Assembly: GCA_025455065.1 (NCBI GenBank)
Contig: JALONG010000003.1
Location: forward strand, 62,001-126,000
From: Candidatus Kapaibacterium sp.
Lineage (GTDB): Bacteria > Bacteroidota > Ignavibacteria > Kapaibacteriales > UBA4661
Reading direction: 5' to 3'
Length of the DNA: 64,000 bases
Below the pieces are notes generated by a model, which did no database searches, was not told the DNA's origin, and worked only from the letters and a program-made list of their open reading frames with translations. Both the position numbers and the translations under genes were made by a program. Below, piece by piece: positions 15,738 through 43,354 of the stretch. The stretch's first letter is position 1. Every line of letters begins with the position of its first letter.

Positions 15738-17039
15738 ATGAACATCCTTCTTATCGGCTCCGGCGGACGTGAACACGCGCTTGCCAAGAAACTTAGCCAA
15801 TCGCCCAACGTCAAACTGTGCGCTGCGCCGGGCAATCCAGGCATTTTGCAGTTTGCGCACCACGCGCATATTGACATCACCGAACATGAGGAACTCCTTG
15901 ATTTTTGCGAAGAAGCAAGTATTGACCTTGTTGTCGTCGGTCCCGAAGCGCCCCTAGCGGCTGGTTTGGCAGACGACCTTCGTGCAAAAAATTTCGCCGT
16001 CTTCGGTCCCTCGCGTGATGCTGCACGTTTGGAATCCTCCAAAGCCTTCGCCAAAGATTTTATGCTGCGGCACGGCATCCCAACGGCACAATATCGGGTT
16101 TTTAACGAACATCAGCACCACGAAGCCCGTGAATACGTCGCTTCGCATCCGCTTCCTGTTGTGATTAAAGCCGACGGTCTGGCTGCCGGAAAAGGTGTAA
16201 CTGTTGCCGAAACGCACCGCCACGCGCTTGAAGCGCTGGATGCAGCATTTGACGGCAAGTTCGGCACAGCAGGGCGCAGCATCGTTGTCGAGGAGTTTAT
16301 GGACGGCGAAGAAGCCTCACTGTTTGCTATTTGCGACGGAGAGAATTTTCTCACTCTCGCTTCCGCGCAAGACCACAAGCGCATCGGCGACGGCGACACA
16401 GGCGAAAACACGGGTGGAATGGGCGCATATGCTCCGGCTCCGATTGTTACGACCGAAATTTTGCGCGAGGCGGAAGAACGCATTATTGCCCCAACCCTGC
16501 GTGGAATGAAGGCGGAAGGGCATCCGTTTGTCGGGTGTTTGTACGTGGGTTTGATGATTGACACAAGCGGCAATGCGCGTGTTGTGGAATTTAACGCCCG
16601 CTTTGGCGACCCCGAAACACAAGCCGTTTTGAACGTCTTGGACGGAGATTTAGCGCGGCTTCTGCACAGTGCCGCCATTGGTAATCTCGACAGAAGCACG
16701 GTTCAGAGCGTTGCAAGCGGCGTGTCGTGCTGCGTGGTGCTTGCAGCAAGCGGCTATCCGGGCGAAGTCCGCAGAGGCGATGAAATCACGGGTATTGAAG
16801 ATGCCGAAAAAACAAGTAACGGTGCGGTCAGCGTATTTCATGCCGGAACAATGCTCCATGACGATGTCGACGGCACACAAAGCCTCCGCACACACGGCGG
16901 GCGTGTTCTGGGCGTTACCGCAAAAGGAACAACGCTGGAAGACGCTATCGAACAAAGCTACAAAGCCATTAAACACATCCATTTTCGCGGCAAAACCTAT
17001 CGCACCGATATTGGGCAAAAGGGGATGAAGAAGGGATAA
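15738..17039 (+). CDS. purD: Phosphoribosylamine-glycine ligase
   Basis: Second step of purine synthesis: ATP-dependent ligation of glycine to phosphoribosylamine. The 433-aa ATP-grasp protein starts MNILLIGSGGREHALAKKL, has the lid segment VIKADGLAAGKGVTVAE and the signature FGDPETQAVL near residue 290. Length is normal. The next gene is a purine nucleoside phosphorylase, so two purine enzymes lie side by side, but their 50-base spacing does not prove cotranscription. Confidence 0.98.
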   Translation: MNILLIGSGGREHALAKKLSQSPNVKLCAAPGNPGILQFAHHAHIDITEHEELLDFCEEASIDLVVVGPEAPLAAGLADDLRAKNFAVFGPSRDAARLESSKAFAKDFMLRHGIPTAQYRVFNEHQHHEAREYVASHPLPVVIKADGLAAGKGVTVAETHRHALEALDAAFDGKFGTAGRSIVVEEFMDGEEASLFAICDGENFLTLASAQDHKRIGDGDTGENTGGMGAYAPAPIVTTEILREAEERIIAPTLRGMKAEGHPFVGCLYVGLMIDTSGNARVVEFNARFGDPETQAVLNVLDGDLARLLHSAAIGNLDRSTVQSVASGVSCCVVLAASGYPGEVRRGDEITGIEDAEKTSNGAVSVFHAGTMLHDDVDGTQSLRTHGGRVLGVTAKGTTLEDAIEQSYKAIKHIHFRGKTYRTDIGQKGMKKG

Positions 17040-36373: not shown

Positions 36374-39300
36374 TTATCGAACAAGTAAAATTTTTCTCAT
36401 CGTCGTAAAGCGCTCTGCTTTCATGCGGCAAAAATACACGCCTGGTGCGAGATGTGCTGTGCTAACCTCACCCTGATACGCGCCTTCGGGGAAAAAACCC
36501 TCCGTAACGGTAGCTTTTACTTGCCCCAAGGCATCCAAAATTTCCACCGTCACAAGCGACGGATAGGCAACCTCAAAATCCACGCGCATATTGTCGGTAA
36601 CGGGGTTTGGGGCAATTTCACTCAGCAAAAACGTACCATTGCCGACTGCACTCACTTTTGCCTGCACACCGCAAACAGAATCCAGTGCAAATGTTCCCGT
36701 TGTTGTTGCGCTTTCCAACACGCGCACACGCACACATCCGCCCGAATCGCCGATATTATCAAAGCGGACATTCGTTAAACGCAAAGGAGTAGCCGAAACA
36801 CGCCGCCCCAAATATGCCCGGAAATTCAACCAAAGCAGAATTTCATTCGCGGGAATAAGCTGCGGTTCACGGGCGGTAATGGTAAAACGTAATGTCGAAT
36901 CATCGTTAAAACTCAGTAACCGTGCGGGTGGCAGGATATTCGCATTAGCACTTGCCGTGCGGTTTGCCTCGAATCCCGTGTACTGAAGCAGTGTGCGGTT
37001 GTAGGTAAAATCAAACGTTGCGCGTTGTGCGTAGCTGAGTGCCGTTTGATTGAGTGCAATATCACCCGAAGGCGAAGGGCGCACAAACACAGGAATACTG
37101 ACCGTTTCGCCCGGCGAAGCCTGCACCGTTGCTGCTGAAACGGTAATGGTTGGTTGCCCGATTGCTTCACCGACAAGCACGATGCGCCGCACACTGTCAA
37201 TGGCATCACTCGTAATGCGCAAGGTGTCGGTAAATACGCCAACCGAAAGTGGGCGAAACGTAGCGAGAATGGTCATCTGCTCACCCGCTTGAATTGTGCC
37301 TGTCGTCGGATTTATGCTCAGTTGAAAAAGTCCACCACCGCGCACCAATTCTGCACGGTAGGTAAGCGGTGTTCCGCAGTTGGCTCTGTTCGGCGGATTT
37401 TCGATAACAATAGGAATGGTGCTGTTTACAGGGCAACCTGTTCCAAGCGAATTGCGGGGAAATTCCACACGCAAAGGCGTAGTGATGTTCGGGCGAATAC
37501 CTTCGGCGCGAAGTTCAAGAATAATTTGCTCAACGCTATCGGGGGCAGTCGGAATACGCCCCGCACGTTTGATGTCGCTAAAAAGAATGTACTGAAATGT
37601 TTTCACCCCTAAGTCCGTCGGGCGAAACTGCACCGTAAGCGAGGAATCGCGCCCTCCGGCGGTAACGGCGCTATTGGTGATAAACTGCCGAAGCACCGTA
37701 AATGCGGCATCATTACTGGTGTTTCCACTGAGTATGCGGTCTTGTCTCCATACGGCAAATGGCAAATTTCCGTTATTTTGAAATGCAATGCGTACATCTC
37801 GCGTTAGCCCAACCCGCACACAGCCTAAATCAATCGTAAATTTGCGATACCCGTTTTGGGCGAACGATGCCACAGGGCGCTGAATTTGGCTGTTGCTCAT
37901 AGCATCTGAGGTAGCGCTAACGACATCAAATTGCTGCTCCACACCCACACCTCGAAGCCTGAGTGCAAGCGTTTCTCTGCCTTGTGTGGAATCTATGAGG
38001 CTTGTGAGAATATAGTTTGCGCTGTCTGCGCCGCGTGTGCGAGGGCGAAATGTTGCAGCAAGTTGTCCGCTTGCTCCCACACTGTAACGCCGTGCTGTTC
38101 GCGCCGTGTCAATAGCCTCAGCACTGAAGGCACGAGATGAGGTCAGCGCGTCAATGCTTGGTTGCGCTTGAAGCGTTGCAGAAAATGTCGGAGAAATATT
38201 GCGCAAAAGTGTGGTATCACGCCGCTCTGAGCCAACATACACCGAATCAAAACCCAACGTTTGCCGTGCCGGAGCAAGGATATTCGGCAGCCGATTCACA
38301 CGCAAAATAAATGGTCTTGTGGCAATTTCCGTGCCTGTTGCGGGGTTGCGGACACGCACCGTGAGCGTCGCTTCTTTGCGCCCGGAAGGGAAGGACGTTT
38401 CGGCTGTATAGCGCACGGTTGCGAGAAATGTTCCGCCTGTGGTGCTGTCTAAATTTCCTGTCGGCTGCAAAAGCGTAAATTCACTTGCATCCCGCGAAGC
38501 ACCACCAATGCTTGTTTCTAAGGAGTTTGCCATTGTAAGCGGTAAATTACCGGCATTACGCACAACGACGGTTTGTGTTGTTGTTTGCCCTGTTACGACT
38601 GTTCCAAAATCCAGCATTTCTCCGTCCACAGGCGCTTGTAGGCGTTCGATTGTGGCATCGGCGAGTTCTGCACGACCGCGTAAATAAAGCGTGTAATCAT
38701 CCAAATTTCGTCCTCGAAGCGTTATAGAATCGAGGAAATCACCGAATCGTATCGGGCGAAAAACTATTGTCGGATTAAACATTGCACCCGAAGTGGCTTC
38801 AATTTCAGACGGCAAAACTGTTAATACATCCGGCGAATTGCTCACAAAAGGGCTACCGGGAGTGCGCACGGCGGAGTCAATCCAAAAATTTGTTCTTACG
38901 TCGCTGGCACGAGAAAACGTAAACGAGCGCACATCAAAACGAAAATCTCTCGTTGGTGCTTCGGCTCGCAGCGTGTTAAAAACCAGCGTATTAGCGGCAT
39001 CCAATCCCGTTACATTGAGCGAACCTCCCACACCTGCACCCTGCAAACGCAAACGGAAAATTTCTGTGCCACCCGCACTGGCAGCAAAGGTCGGGTCATT
39101 CGTAAAAATCTGTACATCCAGCGTGTGAGCGGCTTGCACTCTGGGCTGGTAGCTCAAAAAAATCGGCAAGGAATCACCACGATTGATGATTCGCTGCACA
39201 CGCACATCGCCCACAGGGGACGAAATGAGAAAAAAACTATTTGGGTCAGTATCAACATCAAAACGCACCGTAAGCGGCTCTGTACCTCGATTGTAAATGA

Positions 39301-40108
39301 CAAAACGCCGCGTTTGTTGCGGCGAACCTACGCGGTACGAACCAAAATCCAACACCATATCACGAAAAGGCTGGCGTGGGCGGTCATCATTCAGTATTCG
39401 TGCGGGTTGCACGGAATTGACTGCAAAACTGGGTCGTGCAGAAATCGCAAGTTCAGGACTGATGCGCTCGACGCGCATGGTGAGTGTGTCACTGTTGTCG
39501 TTGTAAGAAGCGTTATTGCCGAAACCAAGCCTATCCACAAACACCGTTTGCAACGGCAGATTACCGCCTTGAACAGTCGCAAAATAGGCATTATTCGGGT
39601 CGTAGGCATCGTTTTGCCTGTCGGGGATAAACGCAAAACGGCGTAGTTGCTGGGCATTTTGGACGGCGAATTGATTGCTTTGCGTGGCTGGCAGCGCCGG
39701 ATTTGGTCTAAGAGCGTTCCAAGCAAGAAACACGAGACACGGTGAAGCGGCAGGATTTGCTGCAAACGTGGTGCAAAACTGTTCTGCGGCAGTGCCATTA
39801 GCATCAAGCGGCATTTGAGGGCGCTGAATCATCTGAAACGGCAGATTGTTCACGAAAAACCGTGCGTCCACCTCAGTTTGTGCGTTAATCACCTGCCCCA
39901 CCGAACCGCGTCCGCGCACAACGATGTTATAGAGCGCATTTTGAAACAGCGTGATGGAGGATTGCGTTGCAACCGCACTCCGAAGCGGGATGCGAAGCGT
40001 TTCAGGGGCTTGTGAGTGGAGTGAGGAAATACTCGCAAACAACAGCGCTAACACGCATAAAATCTTGCGAAACGATAGTAAAATTCTTTGCAACAAAGCG
40101 GTGAGCAT
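36374..40108 (-). CDS. Large T9SS-exported multidomain protein
   Basis: A 1244-aa secreted protein: signal peptide (RKILCVLALLFASISSLHS), repeated immunoglobulin-like modules of the ASH/choice-of-anchor type (recurring FGSVVTGQTTTQTVVVRNAG-like motifs; at least five), a cohesin-like segment near residues 990-1140 (GETVSIPVFVRPSP), then a type IX sorting domain (LGQVKATVTEGFFPEG to MRKILLVR). The role is unknown; it could be an adhesin or surface scaffold. The ATG giving MLTALLQRI is chosen, 46 bases after the LexA-like gene; the upstream frame overlaps that gene. Confidence 0.88.
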   Translation of the reverse strand: MLTALLQRILLSFRKILCVLALLFASISSLHSQAPETLRIPLRSAVATQSSITLFQNALYNIVVRGRGSVGQVINAQTEVDARFFVNNLPFQMIQRPQMPLDANGTAAEQFCTTFAANPAASPCLVFLAWNALRPNPALPATQSNQFAVQNAQQLRRFAFIPDRQNDAYDPNNAYFATVQGGNLPLQTVFVDRLGFGNNASYNDNSDTLTMRVERISPELAISARPSFAVNSVQPARILNDDRPRQPFRDMVLDFGSYRVGSPQQTRRFVIYNRGTEPLTVRFDVDTDPNSFFLISSPVGDVRVQRIINRGDSLPIFLSYQPRVQAAHTLDVQIFTNDPTFAASAGGTEIFRLRLQGAGVGGSLNVTGLDAANTLVFNTLRAEAPTRDFRFDVRSFTFSRASDVRTNFWIDSAVRTPGSPFVSNSPDVLTVLPSEIEATSGAMFNPTIVFRPIRFGDFLDSITLRGRNLDDYTLYLRGRAELADATIERLQAPVDGEMLDFGTVVTGQTTTQTVVVRNAGNLPLTMANSLETSIGGASRDASEFTLLQPTGNLDSTTGGTFLATVRYTAETSFPSGRKEATLTVRVRNPATGTEIATRPFILRVNRLPNILAPARQTLGFDSVYVGSERRDTTLLRNISPTFSATLQAQPSIDALTSSRAFSAEAIDTARTARRYSVGASGQLAATFRPRTRGADSANYILTSLIDSTQGRETLALRLRGVGVEQQFDVVSATSDAMSNSQIQRPVASFAQNGYRKFTIDLGCVRVGLTRDVRIAFQNNGNLPFAVWRQDRILSGNTSNDAAFTVLRQFITNSAVTAGGRDSSLTVQFRPTDLGVKTFQYILFSDIKRAGRIPTAPDSVEQIILELRAEGIRPNITTPLRVEFPRNSLGTGCPVNSTIPIVIENPPNRANCGTPLTYRAELVRGGGLFQLSINPTTGTIQAGEQMTILATFRPLSVGVFTDTLRITSDAIDSVRRIVLVGEAIGQPTITVSAATVQASPGETVSIPVFVRPSPSGDIALNQTALSYAQRATFDFTYNRTLLQYTGFEANRTASANANILPPARLLSFNDDSTLRFTITAREPQLIPANEILLWLNFRAYLGRRVSATPLRLTNVRFDNIGDSGGCVRVRVLESATTTGTFALDSVCGVQAKVSAVGNGTFLLSEIAPNPVTDNMRVDFEVAYPSLVTVEILDALGQVKATVTEGFFPEGAYQGEVSTAHLAPGVYFCRMKAERFTTMRKILLVR

Positions 40109-40154
40109 AGAATAATCCCTACGAAAACAATGAAAAAGAATACACGAGGGGAAT

Positions 40155-40913
40155 TTACACACGGCGCATTTGCCCAATAACCACGCCGATAATTGCCACA
40201 ACGCCCGCGCCTTCGTGAAAGGGAATTGACGGAAAGGTTTTTGTAGCCGCTTCTAACTCGGCGAGCGCACCAAGCCTTGCGAGGCGGCGCACTATAATCG
40301 AATCATGGAACAATGCCACAACCATATCACCTTCGGCGGCGCTAAATTGCTGCTTCGCTATAACCACATCGCCTTCACGCAGACTTTCGGCGCTCATGCC
40401 GTCGTCGCTGACGATTGCCGCAAAAAGCTGTGGTGGTGCGCTTTCGGCGGCGAGTTGTGAAAATTCGGGAAGAAAAAAATCGGTATCAATTTTGATCTGC
40501 CCACGCGGTGAAAGAAAGGCAGAGAGCGGGTTTTGAGCAATACCGTCACCGACAATGACCACATTTTTTACGCTCTGAAACTGGTGATTCAGCATCGGCA
40601 CAACACTGCGCTGCACCGACGGAGCGAGTGTTGGTGCGCTCTGCGCGATTTGTTTTGGCTGCGGTGTAAAATCCACAATTTGTATTCCCCGCGACGCACC
40701 TTTGGTGGAACGCCGAATATGCCCTTTGCGCTCCAAAGCTACCAAATACTGCGTTACGGCGTTGGTGGAAGCAAACGAAAACTTATCCCCGATTTCTTTC
40801 ATCGTTGGCGGGAAGCCGTGTTCTTCGGTGTACTGCTGCAAAAAGCGCAAAACATCGTGTTGCTTTGTGGTTAAAGGTTGTTTTGCCGTGTCAGTGTGAA
40901 TTGTTGCTTTCAT
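40155..40913 (-). CDS. lexA: LexA-like repressor with altered cleavage residues
   Basis: S24-family repressor with a winged-helix DNA-binding domain (residues 13-72: TTKQHDVLRFLQQYTEEHG, FPPTMKEIGDKF, ASTNAVTQYLVALERKGHI) and a C-terminal peptidase-like domain. The serine of the dyad is present (DGMS, Ser174). The lysine partner position is Arg209 (SIIVRRLAR, LexA consensus VKRL). The cleavage-site segment reads VGDGIAQNPL, so the scissile bond would be Ala126-Gln127 instead of Ala-Gly. Length 252 is above the usual 200-210, with a linker of about 40 residues. No clear SOS-type dyad is visible upstream. Whether it still self-cleaves is uncertain. Confidence 0.85.
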   Translation of the reverse strand: MKATIHTDTAKQPLTTKQHDVLRFLQQYTEEHGFPPTMKEIGDKFSFASTNAVTQYLVALERKGHIRRSTKGASRGIQIVDFTPQPKQIAQSAPTLAPSVQRSVVPMLNHQFQSVKNVVIVGDGIAQNPLSAFLSPRGQIKIDTDFFLPEFSQLAAESAPPQLFAAIVSDDGMSAESLREGDVVIAKQQFSAAEGDMVVALFHDSIIVRRLARLGALAELEAATKTFPSIPFHEGAGVVAIIGVVIGQMRRV

Positions 40914-40964: not shown

Positions 40965-42899
40965 TTACAAGAGCAATTTTGTCGGCGAATTATTTTGGGA
41001 AAGTGTGTGCGATTGTGAAAAATGCGCACTATGCACAGTAAATTGCGCCGTTAAACGCTGAAGCGCATCTGCCATGGAGCGCAATGATTCTGCGGTTTTG
41101 GCGACATCCCGCACAGAATATGCCGACTGTTCGGACACATTACGAATCTGCTCCATGCGCTGTGCGATATCATCGCTGGCTTTGGCTTGCTCTTCGCTTG
41201 CGGCGGCGACTTGCGTTATGGTGTCGGACACGGTTGATGTACGGCGAATAATGGTTTCAAGCGCCTGGGCAGCATTTGCCGCAGAACGTTTTCCGGTTTC
41301 GACCTGCTCACGTCCGCCGTGCATTGCCGCGACAGCGCGTCCGGTCTCTTCTTGGATGCGCTGAATGGTGTGCGCAATTTCTTTCGTCGCTTTGGTGGTG
41401 CGCTCGGCAAGTTTGCGCACTTCGTCGGCAACCACCGCAAAGCCGCGTCCTTGCTCACCTGCGCGGGCAGCTTCGATTGCGGCATTAAGCGCCAAAAGAT
41501 TAGTTTGGTCGGCAATTTCCTCAATGGTTTGAATAACTTCACCAATTTGTTCGCTGGATTTACCAAGTTCTTCAATCGTTTTTGCCGAACTCATCACCAC
41601 TTCTGCCACAGCATTCATGCCTTGAATCGTCTCGCGGACGATAGTGCCGCCGTGCAGCGCGTCTTTGCTGGTCTGCGCGGCTTCATTCGCCGCAAGCGCG
41701 ATTTGGTGCGTATTTTCGGCAATCGTTTGTGTCATTTCCTCAACGGCGGCGGCTACTTGCGCCGTTTCTGCGGATTGAACACTCAAACCGGAGGCAAGTT
41801 CTTCCGATGCAGCAGAAATCTGTCCGGCGGCGGCGGCGGTGGTATCTACGGCGCTGACAACCTTACCGACAAGATTGCCCATCGTACTGACGGCGTTGTT
41901 AAAGCCCTCGAAGAGCCGCCCAATCGTATCACGCGCTTCGATGCTGAGTTGTGTCGTGAGGTCGCCCTTTGCCAAACGCTGCATTTCATAGAGAATTTCT
42001 TCCACTTTTTTCGAGAGATATTCTTGCTGACGGACGGCTTCGGTGCGAGCGTGTTCGGCTTCTTGGGCTGCGGATTCTGCGATGACGGTCTTTGCGCGAA
42101 CCTCTGCCAAAAGGTCATTGATATTTGCAGACATCGTGTTAAACGATGTTCCCAGCAAGCCAAGTTCATCGTTATTGCGTACGGTTGCTTTTGCATCGGT
42201 TTTGCCGGAAGCAAGTAATTCTGCGGCGTTTTTGAGGCTGTTAATCGGCTTCAAAAGACTGCGTAAGGTCAGCCAAGCAATAAGCACACCAAAGACTAAA
42301 CCGACTGTTCCCAAAAAGAGCAACAGTGTTTTTAAGCGATTTCCTTGCGCGGCGGAATCATCATACAAGTGCTGTCCGACGGTATCTTGGATATTCACAA
42401 TTTCCGTGATAGATTTTGCAACCCTTGTAAGCGCTTGTGTTTCTTCGTTGAGGTGGATTTGTTCTGCGCTCGCGGGCTGACCGTTGCGGCTTAAATCCAT
42501 TTTTTGATTGAAAATTCGGCGAAAATCACTCAAATCTATTTTGAGCTGTTTCAGCGCAACTTCTTCCGCAGGAACAAGATACGTTGCGGAATAATCACTG
42601 ATTTGTTTATCAACATCGGCATTTAATTCCGTCAATTTAAGTTCAATGTCTTTCACATCCCCCATGCCGCTTATTTTCACGTGCGCAAGCGAGTATTCGT
42701 GCATTTCTACGAGGTTTTTGGAAGCACGATACATCTGAATTGACGGAATAAGGCGGTCTTTGTACATCGAATCAAAGTTCGGAATAATGGCGTTTACCGC
42801 CCTGTATCCGGCAAATGCGGAGAGTATTATCACCAACAGCAGCGCACCAAAACCGATTCGGAGTTTTGTTCTGATGCTTAAATCATAGAACCATTGCAT
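40965..42899 (-). CDS. Methyl-accepting chemotaxis protein, second copy
   Basis: A 644-aa chemoreceptor with an N-terminal membrane segment (about residues 13-35), a four-helix-bundle periplasmic domain ([19 protein letters not shown]), a second membrane segment ([20 protein letters not shown]), HAMP ([15 protein letters not shown]), and a signalling domain with the tip [20 protein letters not shown]. The sensing domain differs from the receptor at 9384-11594, so the ligands differ. The ATG giving [17 protein letters not shown] is chosen; two in-frame starts lie just upstream. No C-terminal methylation-enzyme tether is visible. Confidence 0.92.
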
Positions 42900-43017
42900 A
42901 ATCATCGAAAAAAGAAAGTGAGAGGAATTACAACGGGAATTATCCCGCAAACACAGGTGATAGAGCCACACAAACTACATTTCACCTCAAATATCATCAA
43001 TAGCTGGTCATGTCTTT

Positions 43018-43269
43018 TTACTCATGCAATCGTACAGCTTTCACATCACGAATTTCTTTCCGCAAAATCCGTTCCACACCGGATTTGAGCGTAATATTCG
43101 AGGCAGAACAGGTCGTACAAGCGCCGCTTAACTGCACGAATACAGTGCCGTTTTCGATGCTGTGAAAGGTAATTTTTCCGCCGTCGCGTTCAATAAACGG
43201 GCGGATTTTTTCGTCTATTATCATGGTTACGCGCTCCAAAAGCGCTTCGTTGCTGAGTTCTTGCGTCAT
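43018..43269 (-). CDS. NifU C-terminal-domain protein (Nfu type)
   Basis: An 83-aa iron-sulfur scaffold/carrier domain: RPFIERDGGKITFHSIENG and the CxxC motif SGACTTCSASNITLKSGVE at about residues 50-68, which binds the cluster. It is a stand-alone Nfu domain with no other domains, as in many bacteria. The ATG at 43269 is chosen; the open frame begins at 43362, inside the start region of the photolyase gene. It is divergent from the photolyase gene, 85 bases apart. Confidence 0.9.
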   Translation of the reverse strand: MTQELSNEALLERVTMIIDEKIRPFIERDGGKITFHSIENGTVFVQLSGACTTCSASNITLKSGVERILRKEIRDVKAVRLHE

Positions 43270-43354
43270 AGCGGGAAGAGAAGGAAAGAGGCGAAGAATG
43301 TCGGTGAAAGGGCGTAAACTAACTGTATTTTTGTTCACGTCAAAGCCTTTTTTT

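Follow-up and report, generated by a model that had tools for sequence, protein, structure and literature searches.

Introduction

LexA is the textbook example of an autoproteolytic switch, and mraZ is the gene at the head of the division and cell-wall (dcw) cluster. The LexA of Synechocystis sp. PCC 6803 has Gly-Gly where Ala-Gly is canonical and Asp in place of the Ser, and it regulates non-SOS genes, the reported targets being salt-stress and other cellular genes (PMC3091678, PMC7567884). The non-canonical SOS LexAs of the Bacteroidetes are S24 regulators that stand in for LexA and control SOS genes, and they combine a phage-type HTH (PF01381) with an intact Ala-Gly and an intact Ser-Lys pair (PMC8565304). 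PdhR is a regulator reported to act at the mra/dcw promoter of E. coli (PMC3265435). The sole report of a LexA site at mraZ found in the open-access literature concerns an mraZ homologue of the human gut metagenome, where B. subtilis LexA bound in vitro (PMC3998124), and no description of a module that joins a cleavage-deficient LexA to mraZ was found in the open-access papers.

The present work concerns a lexA-like gene in a 64,000-nucleotide stretch of the genome of a Candidatus Kapaibacterium sp.; the whole of this stretch is referred to below as the window. The gene probably encodes a LexA-fold factor that is dead for self-cleavage and that regulates its own expression and controls mraZ and the dcw cluster through tandem operators, outside the SOS response. 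The sequence comparisons presented here suggest that a DNA-damage switch has been rebuilt into a permanent controller of cell division.

The lexA-like gene and its neighbourhood

The lexA-like gene occupies positions 40155..40913 on the minus strand and, as the original prediction stated, it is a real open reading frame of 252 amino acids, the LexA itself being encoded by 40158-40913; it was characterized using the ORF list, Pfam, phmmer, MAFFT, AlphaFold and Foldseek. A LexA-type winged HTH at residues 12-76 is followed by a linker and an S24-type dimerisation domain. Pfam recognizes both PF01726 (LexA_DNA_bind) at 72.2 bits against a cut-off of 23.7 and PF00717 (Peptidase_S24) at 46.2 bits against a cut-off of 23.3, and the NCBIfam lexA equivalog TIGR00498 is passed by about 1 bit (111.9 against 110.95). 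The AlphaFold model has a mean pLDDT of 84; both terminal domains are modelled with confidence and the linker between them is disordered. Its top Foldseek matches in the PDB are all LexA (T. maritima LexA and the S119A and G85D mutants of E. coli LexA). The TM score is low over the full length and good over the C-terminal domain, as is expected if the orientation of the domains differs between the structures; the LexA fold is kept.

A profile search of the 5.6-Mb genome gives one PF01726 protein and three S24 proteins, and the window protein is the sole LexA with both PF01726 and PF00717. The remaining two S24 proteins (L001 and L002) are UmuD-like, so that the search for a second, canonical lexA proposed in the original prediction was negative, and these matches include no phage-type SOS LexA either. 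Since the window protein is the only LexA in this genome, there should be no cleavable SOS repressor of the LexA type in the cell. L001 has both GNSM and VKRL intact. L002 (L002:1474-2046, on contig C51 of G000) adjoins a UmuC-type polymerase and is without both catalytic residues, having GERL for GDSM and LRRY for VKRL, yet it keeps Pro-Ala-Gly.

Upstream of lexA, and on the same minus strand, Pfam identifies a methyl-accepting chemotaxis protein (MCP) gene (40965..42971) and, beyond it, a NifU-like gene with an Fe-S scaffold domain (43018..43269), which, as the upstream sequences of relatives show, normally stands next to lexA on its upstream side in the window's family. The MCP gene is missing between these two genes in the upstream sequences of the relatives L007-L009, and it is possible that nifU, the MCP gene where present, and lexA form one transcription unit. 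The intergenic region at 43270..43354 separates the NifU-like gene from a divergent photolyase-related gene (PF04244; 43355-44914, plus strand), and it contains a conserved block, GTGAACAAAAATACAG, which has 8 of the 10 bases of the operator described below. This block was set aside as a LexA operator. Because a similar sequence, GTGAACAAAAAATA, stands upstream of mraZ apart from the operators there, the block is more readily taken for a promoter or another kind of element, and a promoter is more likely than an operator.

No SOS-type site was found in the 51-base gap before lexA, in agreement with the original prediction. Within the window, 9 of the 10 consensus bases are matched only at 16691, 43752, 52447 and 58683, which is about the number expected by chance. 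The next gene (36374-40201, minus strand) encodes, again as had been proposed, a T9SS-sorted protein; it has 1275 amino acids, a Por_Secre_tail sorting domain, and Ig-like domains of the ASH/HYDIN/Cep192 type, families which are familiar mainly from the cilia and centrosomes of eukaryotes.

Loss of the self-cleavage apparatus

The positions corresponding to the scissile bond and the catalytic residues were located with two alignments, one produced by phmmer against solved LexA structures and the other by MAFFT with an E. coli LexA sequence in which the catalytic positions fell at Ala84, Gly85, Ser119 and Lys156. Both alignments place Ala126-Gln127 (40533..40538, minus strand) at the scissile Ala84-Gly85 and Arg209 (codon CGC, 40287..40289, minus strand) at the column of Lys156; these two replacements had been recognized in the original prediction. 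That prediction also took Ser174 for a retained catalytic Ser, which was wrong: both alignments pair Ser119 with Gly172 of SDDGM (codon GGC, 40398..40400, minus strand), and Ser174, two residues beyond at the column of E. coli Lys121, is ruled out. Since Ser119 is also replaced, the loss of the cleavage elements is complete, and neither a scissile Ala-Gly nor the Ser and Lys of the catalytic dyad are retained in the aligned sequences. A sequencing or alignment error is ruled out by the presence of the same residues in the separate assemblies of relatives. In the structural model, a new contact at the former active site may involve Arg209 and Asp170, the latter being near-invariant, and the invariant Arg and the Asp-rich surroundings may form a fixed or ligand-reading pocket.

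A clade of LexA proteins without the cleavage residues

The same loss of the cleavage elements is shared by 44 sequences, which come from 12 families and group together in a single clade as against the canonical LexAs. A class, “dead LexA paralogue linked to mraZ”, is defined here by an Arg at the Lys156 column and the absence of Ala-Gly from the cleavage site, together with either a gene divergent from mraZ or tandem operators upstream of mraZ. The window protein has both residue features, and its genome has the tandem operators. Relatives with the same dead LexA occur in eight families of the window's order and class. In the alignment of 40 homologues to the window protein, the Lys156 column is occupied by Arg in 40 of 40 rows, and because this residue is invariant where only 13 columns are, Arg209 reflects more than chance. 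Asp182, Asp143 and several residues of the DNA-binding domain are also invariant across the 40 homologues. The Ser column has Gly, Ala or Thr in 39 of the 40 dead rows, and the one row with a Ser (L040) still has the Arg; the canonical LexAs of the sister lineages in the same alignment have Ala-Gly, Ser and Lys in every case.

In the corresponding tree a single branch with support 100/99 separates the 40 dead rows from 21 canonical ones. The dead clade is recovered, again at 100/99, when four families from outside the class are added, and the dead rows still form one clade (SH-aLRT 92) when the cleavage, Ser and Lys segments are masked. The four additional families were reached through a dead sequence, L225, in a 296-genome sample of the phylum; the ten best matches in this sample (226-281 bits) all come from genomes already known to hold a dead LexA, and the next 20 loci (about 193-176 bits) comprise 19 canonical LexAs and L225. 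Dead and canonical LexA occur together in families f16, f42 and f53 (the genomes of f16, and G343 and G225, have both), and because some genomes hold both kinds, the dead kind is a separate, maintained paralogue and not a recent ruin. Family f3, which is otherwise mostly LexA-less, has a lone canonical LexA (L046, in G095) on a long branch, which was possibly acquired or is a contaminant.

If the gene were instead a decaying SOS LexA, a degenerate remnant that is either stuck as a super-repressor or functionless, the disappearance of every cleavage residue would be accounted for, as would the lack of an operator at recA described below. This explanation is barely credible, however, given the invariance of Arg209, Asp182, Asp143 and the DNA-binding residues over the 40 homologues, the retention of the fold and the operators, and the coexistence of the dead paralogue with a canonical LexA in f16, f42 and f53. 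The original prediction had proposed that the protein may be a stable repressor, may be cut poorly, or may respond to a different trigger. The sequence evidence supports this and allows the stronger proposal that the protein would not cleave itself, because every residue of the cleavage chemistry is gone and the loss is ancient and clade-wide.

Linkage to mraZ

The positions of LexA and MraZ matches show the dead lexA next to mraZ and in divergent orientation in 26 genomes, which belong to eight families; several of these genomes have a canonical LexA as well. By family, the arrangement is present in four genomes of f4, five of f6, eight of ten in f16 and all five in f23, and the remaining two cases in f16 are at contig ends. 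Outside the class, G343, G225, G360 and G376, which represent four families, show the arrangement too. The gene order in f16 and f23, with dcw gene names assigned by eye from the translations, is mraZ, rsmH, FtsI-like, murE, murF, mraY, murD, ftsW, murG, murC. In the window genome mraZ is paired with rsmH, and lexA is on another contig, behind the NifU-like and MCP genes. A VWA-domain gene is divergent from mraZ in the window genome and in several others of its genus, and this gene, not mraZ, could be the target there. MraZ and the LexA DNA-binding domain were both not found in eight f2 genomes of high completeness (G010, G019, G026, G033, G038, G043, G048 and G052); related families have both.

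Predicted operators

A palindrome, CTGAA-N6-TTCAG, occurs one to two times upstream of lexA in the genomes of f4 and f6, in which an own-gene operator is clear, and its half-site spacing (CTG-N10-CAG) is that of the E. coli SOS box. The sites described in this section are predicted operators, inferred from their conservation. Among the LexA-positive genomes of the order, a site with at least 9 of 10 bases lies upstream of mraZ in 21 of 26, and a site with all 10 in 13 of 26, while the best site upstream of mraZ in eight LexA-negative genomes has at most 7 of 10. Shuffled sequences reach 9 of 10 in 2.4% of cases and 10 of 10 in 0.1%. The scores of the two groups at mraZ differ with a Mann-Whitney p of 2e-5, in a comparison of genomes which are related by descent and whose counts are therefore not independent.

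The operators usually occur as tandem copies 31 bp apart in f6, or 40-42 bp apart, spacings which correspond to three or four helical turns. A search of 41 genomes for such tandems gave exactly one match in the 5.6 Mb of the window genome, at C99:101810-101863, where the two copies stand 40 bp apart upstream of mraZ-rsmH; the window genome thus has tandem operators upstream of mraZ, lexA itself having moved away. In the window's genus, too, in which lexA now belongs to a nifU-like operon, the palindromes are kept in front of mraZ-rsmH. The LexA-negative genomes in this search gave three stray matches, none of which is at mraZ. In the f6 genomes G023, G036 and G041, all exact operators sit between lexA and mraZ.

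The pattern is not uniform across the clade. In the window's family, in which lexA stands behind the NifU-like gene, the best site upstream has just 8 of 10 bases, and the operators at mraZ are weak or absent in the LexA-positive genomes G001 and G004 of this family and in G017, G051 and G025 of f9. CTGAA-N6-TTCAG was not found in f16, where the dead LexA adjoins mraZ and where the recognition helix reads STRAV as against STNAV elsewhere. Outside the class the sites have the form (G)TGAAA-N4-TTTCA(C), and they likewise lie in the lexA-mraZ gap. Single operators with up to 2 mismatches occur in numbers close to the control in some genomes of the window's genus, and they give no clear further regulon among the matches listed, which leave out the window genome's own sites. 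Clusters of operator-like palindromes such as TACTAAACGTTCGTTCAATA occur a few kb apart at G005:C110:128169, 130146 and 133122, at G003:C332:246 and 1637, and at G007:C387:3223.

The promoters of recA have no operator above background in the genomes where the recA start is readable. This result bears on the possibility of a diverged SOS repressor which is released by another trigger, such as host proteases or a partner, and which controls repair genes through unrecognized sites. The photolyase-related gene on the far side of the NifU-like gene, in divergent orientation, would fit such a role, and LexA control without self-cleavage is reported in Synechocystis (PMC7567884), but with recA free of operators, and with exact operators few and in some genomes limited to the lexA/mraZ region, this possibility is very improbable.

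A second conserved block, TGTRAAC-N5-ATAAY-NN-C, lies between the operators and the mraZ start, and MraZ-box-like TGGG repeats lie nearer to mraZ than this block. The fuller form TGTGAAC-N5-ATAAY-NN-CAATA (e.g. L180, and L110 on C99 of G000) is seen in most LexA-positive genomes and in essentially none of the LexA-negative ones read. The distances from operator to ATAAY fall into the classes 69-70, 78-80 and 89-90, with steps of one helical turn, and the phasing gives a Rayleigh p of about 7e-4 for eight lineages and a period of 10.5, uncorrected for ancestry.

The distance from the operators to the mraZ start codon downstream of them is about 270-430 bp, so that they stand well above the MraZ-box-like repeats. 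This is far for simple repression of mraZ, and in the divergent genomes the sites could serve lexA alone; activation, long-range repression and pure autoregulation are all possible because of this distance. If autoregulation were the whole function, the protein would act on its own promoter beside mraZ and the link to division would be one of passive neighbourhood, as is consistent with the position of the tandem sites in f4 and f6, where lexA is nearer to them than are the mraZ start and the MraZ-box-like repeats. In f1, f5 and f10, however, lexA is elsewhere and paired operators are still kept upstream of mraZ, which argues against pure autoregulation. The flanking gene in f5 has the same direction, so mraZ has the sole promoter there, and the helical spacing to the conserved mraZ-side element is maintained in f1, f5 and f10. 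An autoregulator without further targets is therefore unlikely.

Discussion

In the favoured reading, which assigns to the dead LexA both its own gene and mraZ, two protein dimers would bind the tandem SOS-box-like operators on the same face of the helix, lexA would be autoregulated where it is divergent from mraZ, and the dead LexA would set how strongly mraZ and the genes that follow it are expressed. RecA-triggered cleavage would have no role, so that activity would depend on the amount of protein, on ordinary proteolysis, on modification or on a ligand. We lean somewhat towards a broader proposal, namely that these proteins constitute a new LexA branch, found in several classes of a single phylum, and that its members are pseudoproteases which serve the mraZ/dcw promoter exclusively, an SOS repressor having become a housekeeping regulator of division and wall synthesis. 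Some lineages would have it beside a normal LexA, and in others, including the window genome, it would be the only LexA, leaving no cleavable one.

If this is true, a deep clade in which the switch is gone but the operators, the fold and the place at the division operon are kept would show a DNA-damage regulator turned into a division regulator, and it would provide a testable answer to the question of what controls mraZ and the dcw cluster in this part of the Bacteroidota. There is also a bearing on annotation. The dead genes reach, or almost reach, the threshold for annotation as “transcriptional repressor LexA”, and genomes with only the dead copy would consequently be misread as having a LexA-controlled SOS system.

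The dead LexA resembles canonical LexA (E. coli, T. maritima; TIGR00498) in its winged HTH, its S24-type C-terminal fold, the CTG-N10-CAG operator geometry of the E. coli SOS box and its proposed autoregulation. It differs in being without Ala-Gly, Ser119 and Lys156, in the lack of a recA operator, and in its linkage to mraZ and the dcw cluster. Unlike the Bacteroidetes non-canonical LexAs, the window protein has the PF01726 winged HTH and is without the catalytic triad. The mraZ site from the gut metagenome belongs to a canonical, cleavable LexA and an SOS network, with neither a dead paralogue nor tandem operators. PdhR, as reported, and MraZ act at the mraZ promoter as is proposed here for the dead LexA, but they are unrelated proteins. 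The Synechocystis LexA shares the absence of cleavage residues; there, however, the reported loss is limited to Ala-Gly and the Ser and to a single cyanobacterial LexA on a long branch, whereas the dead LexA has lost the Lys as well, throughout a whole clade, and has a conserved linkage to mraZ.
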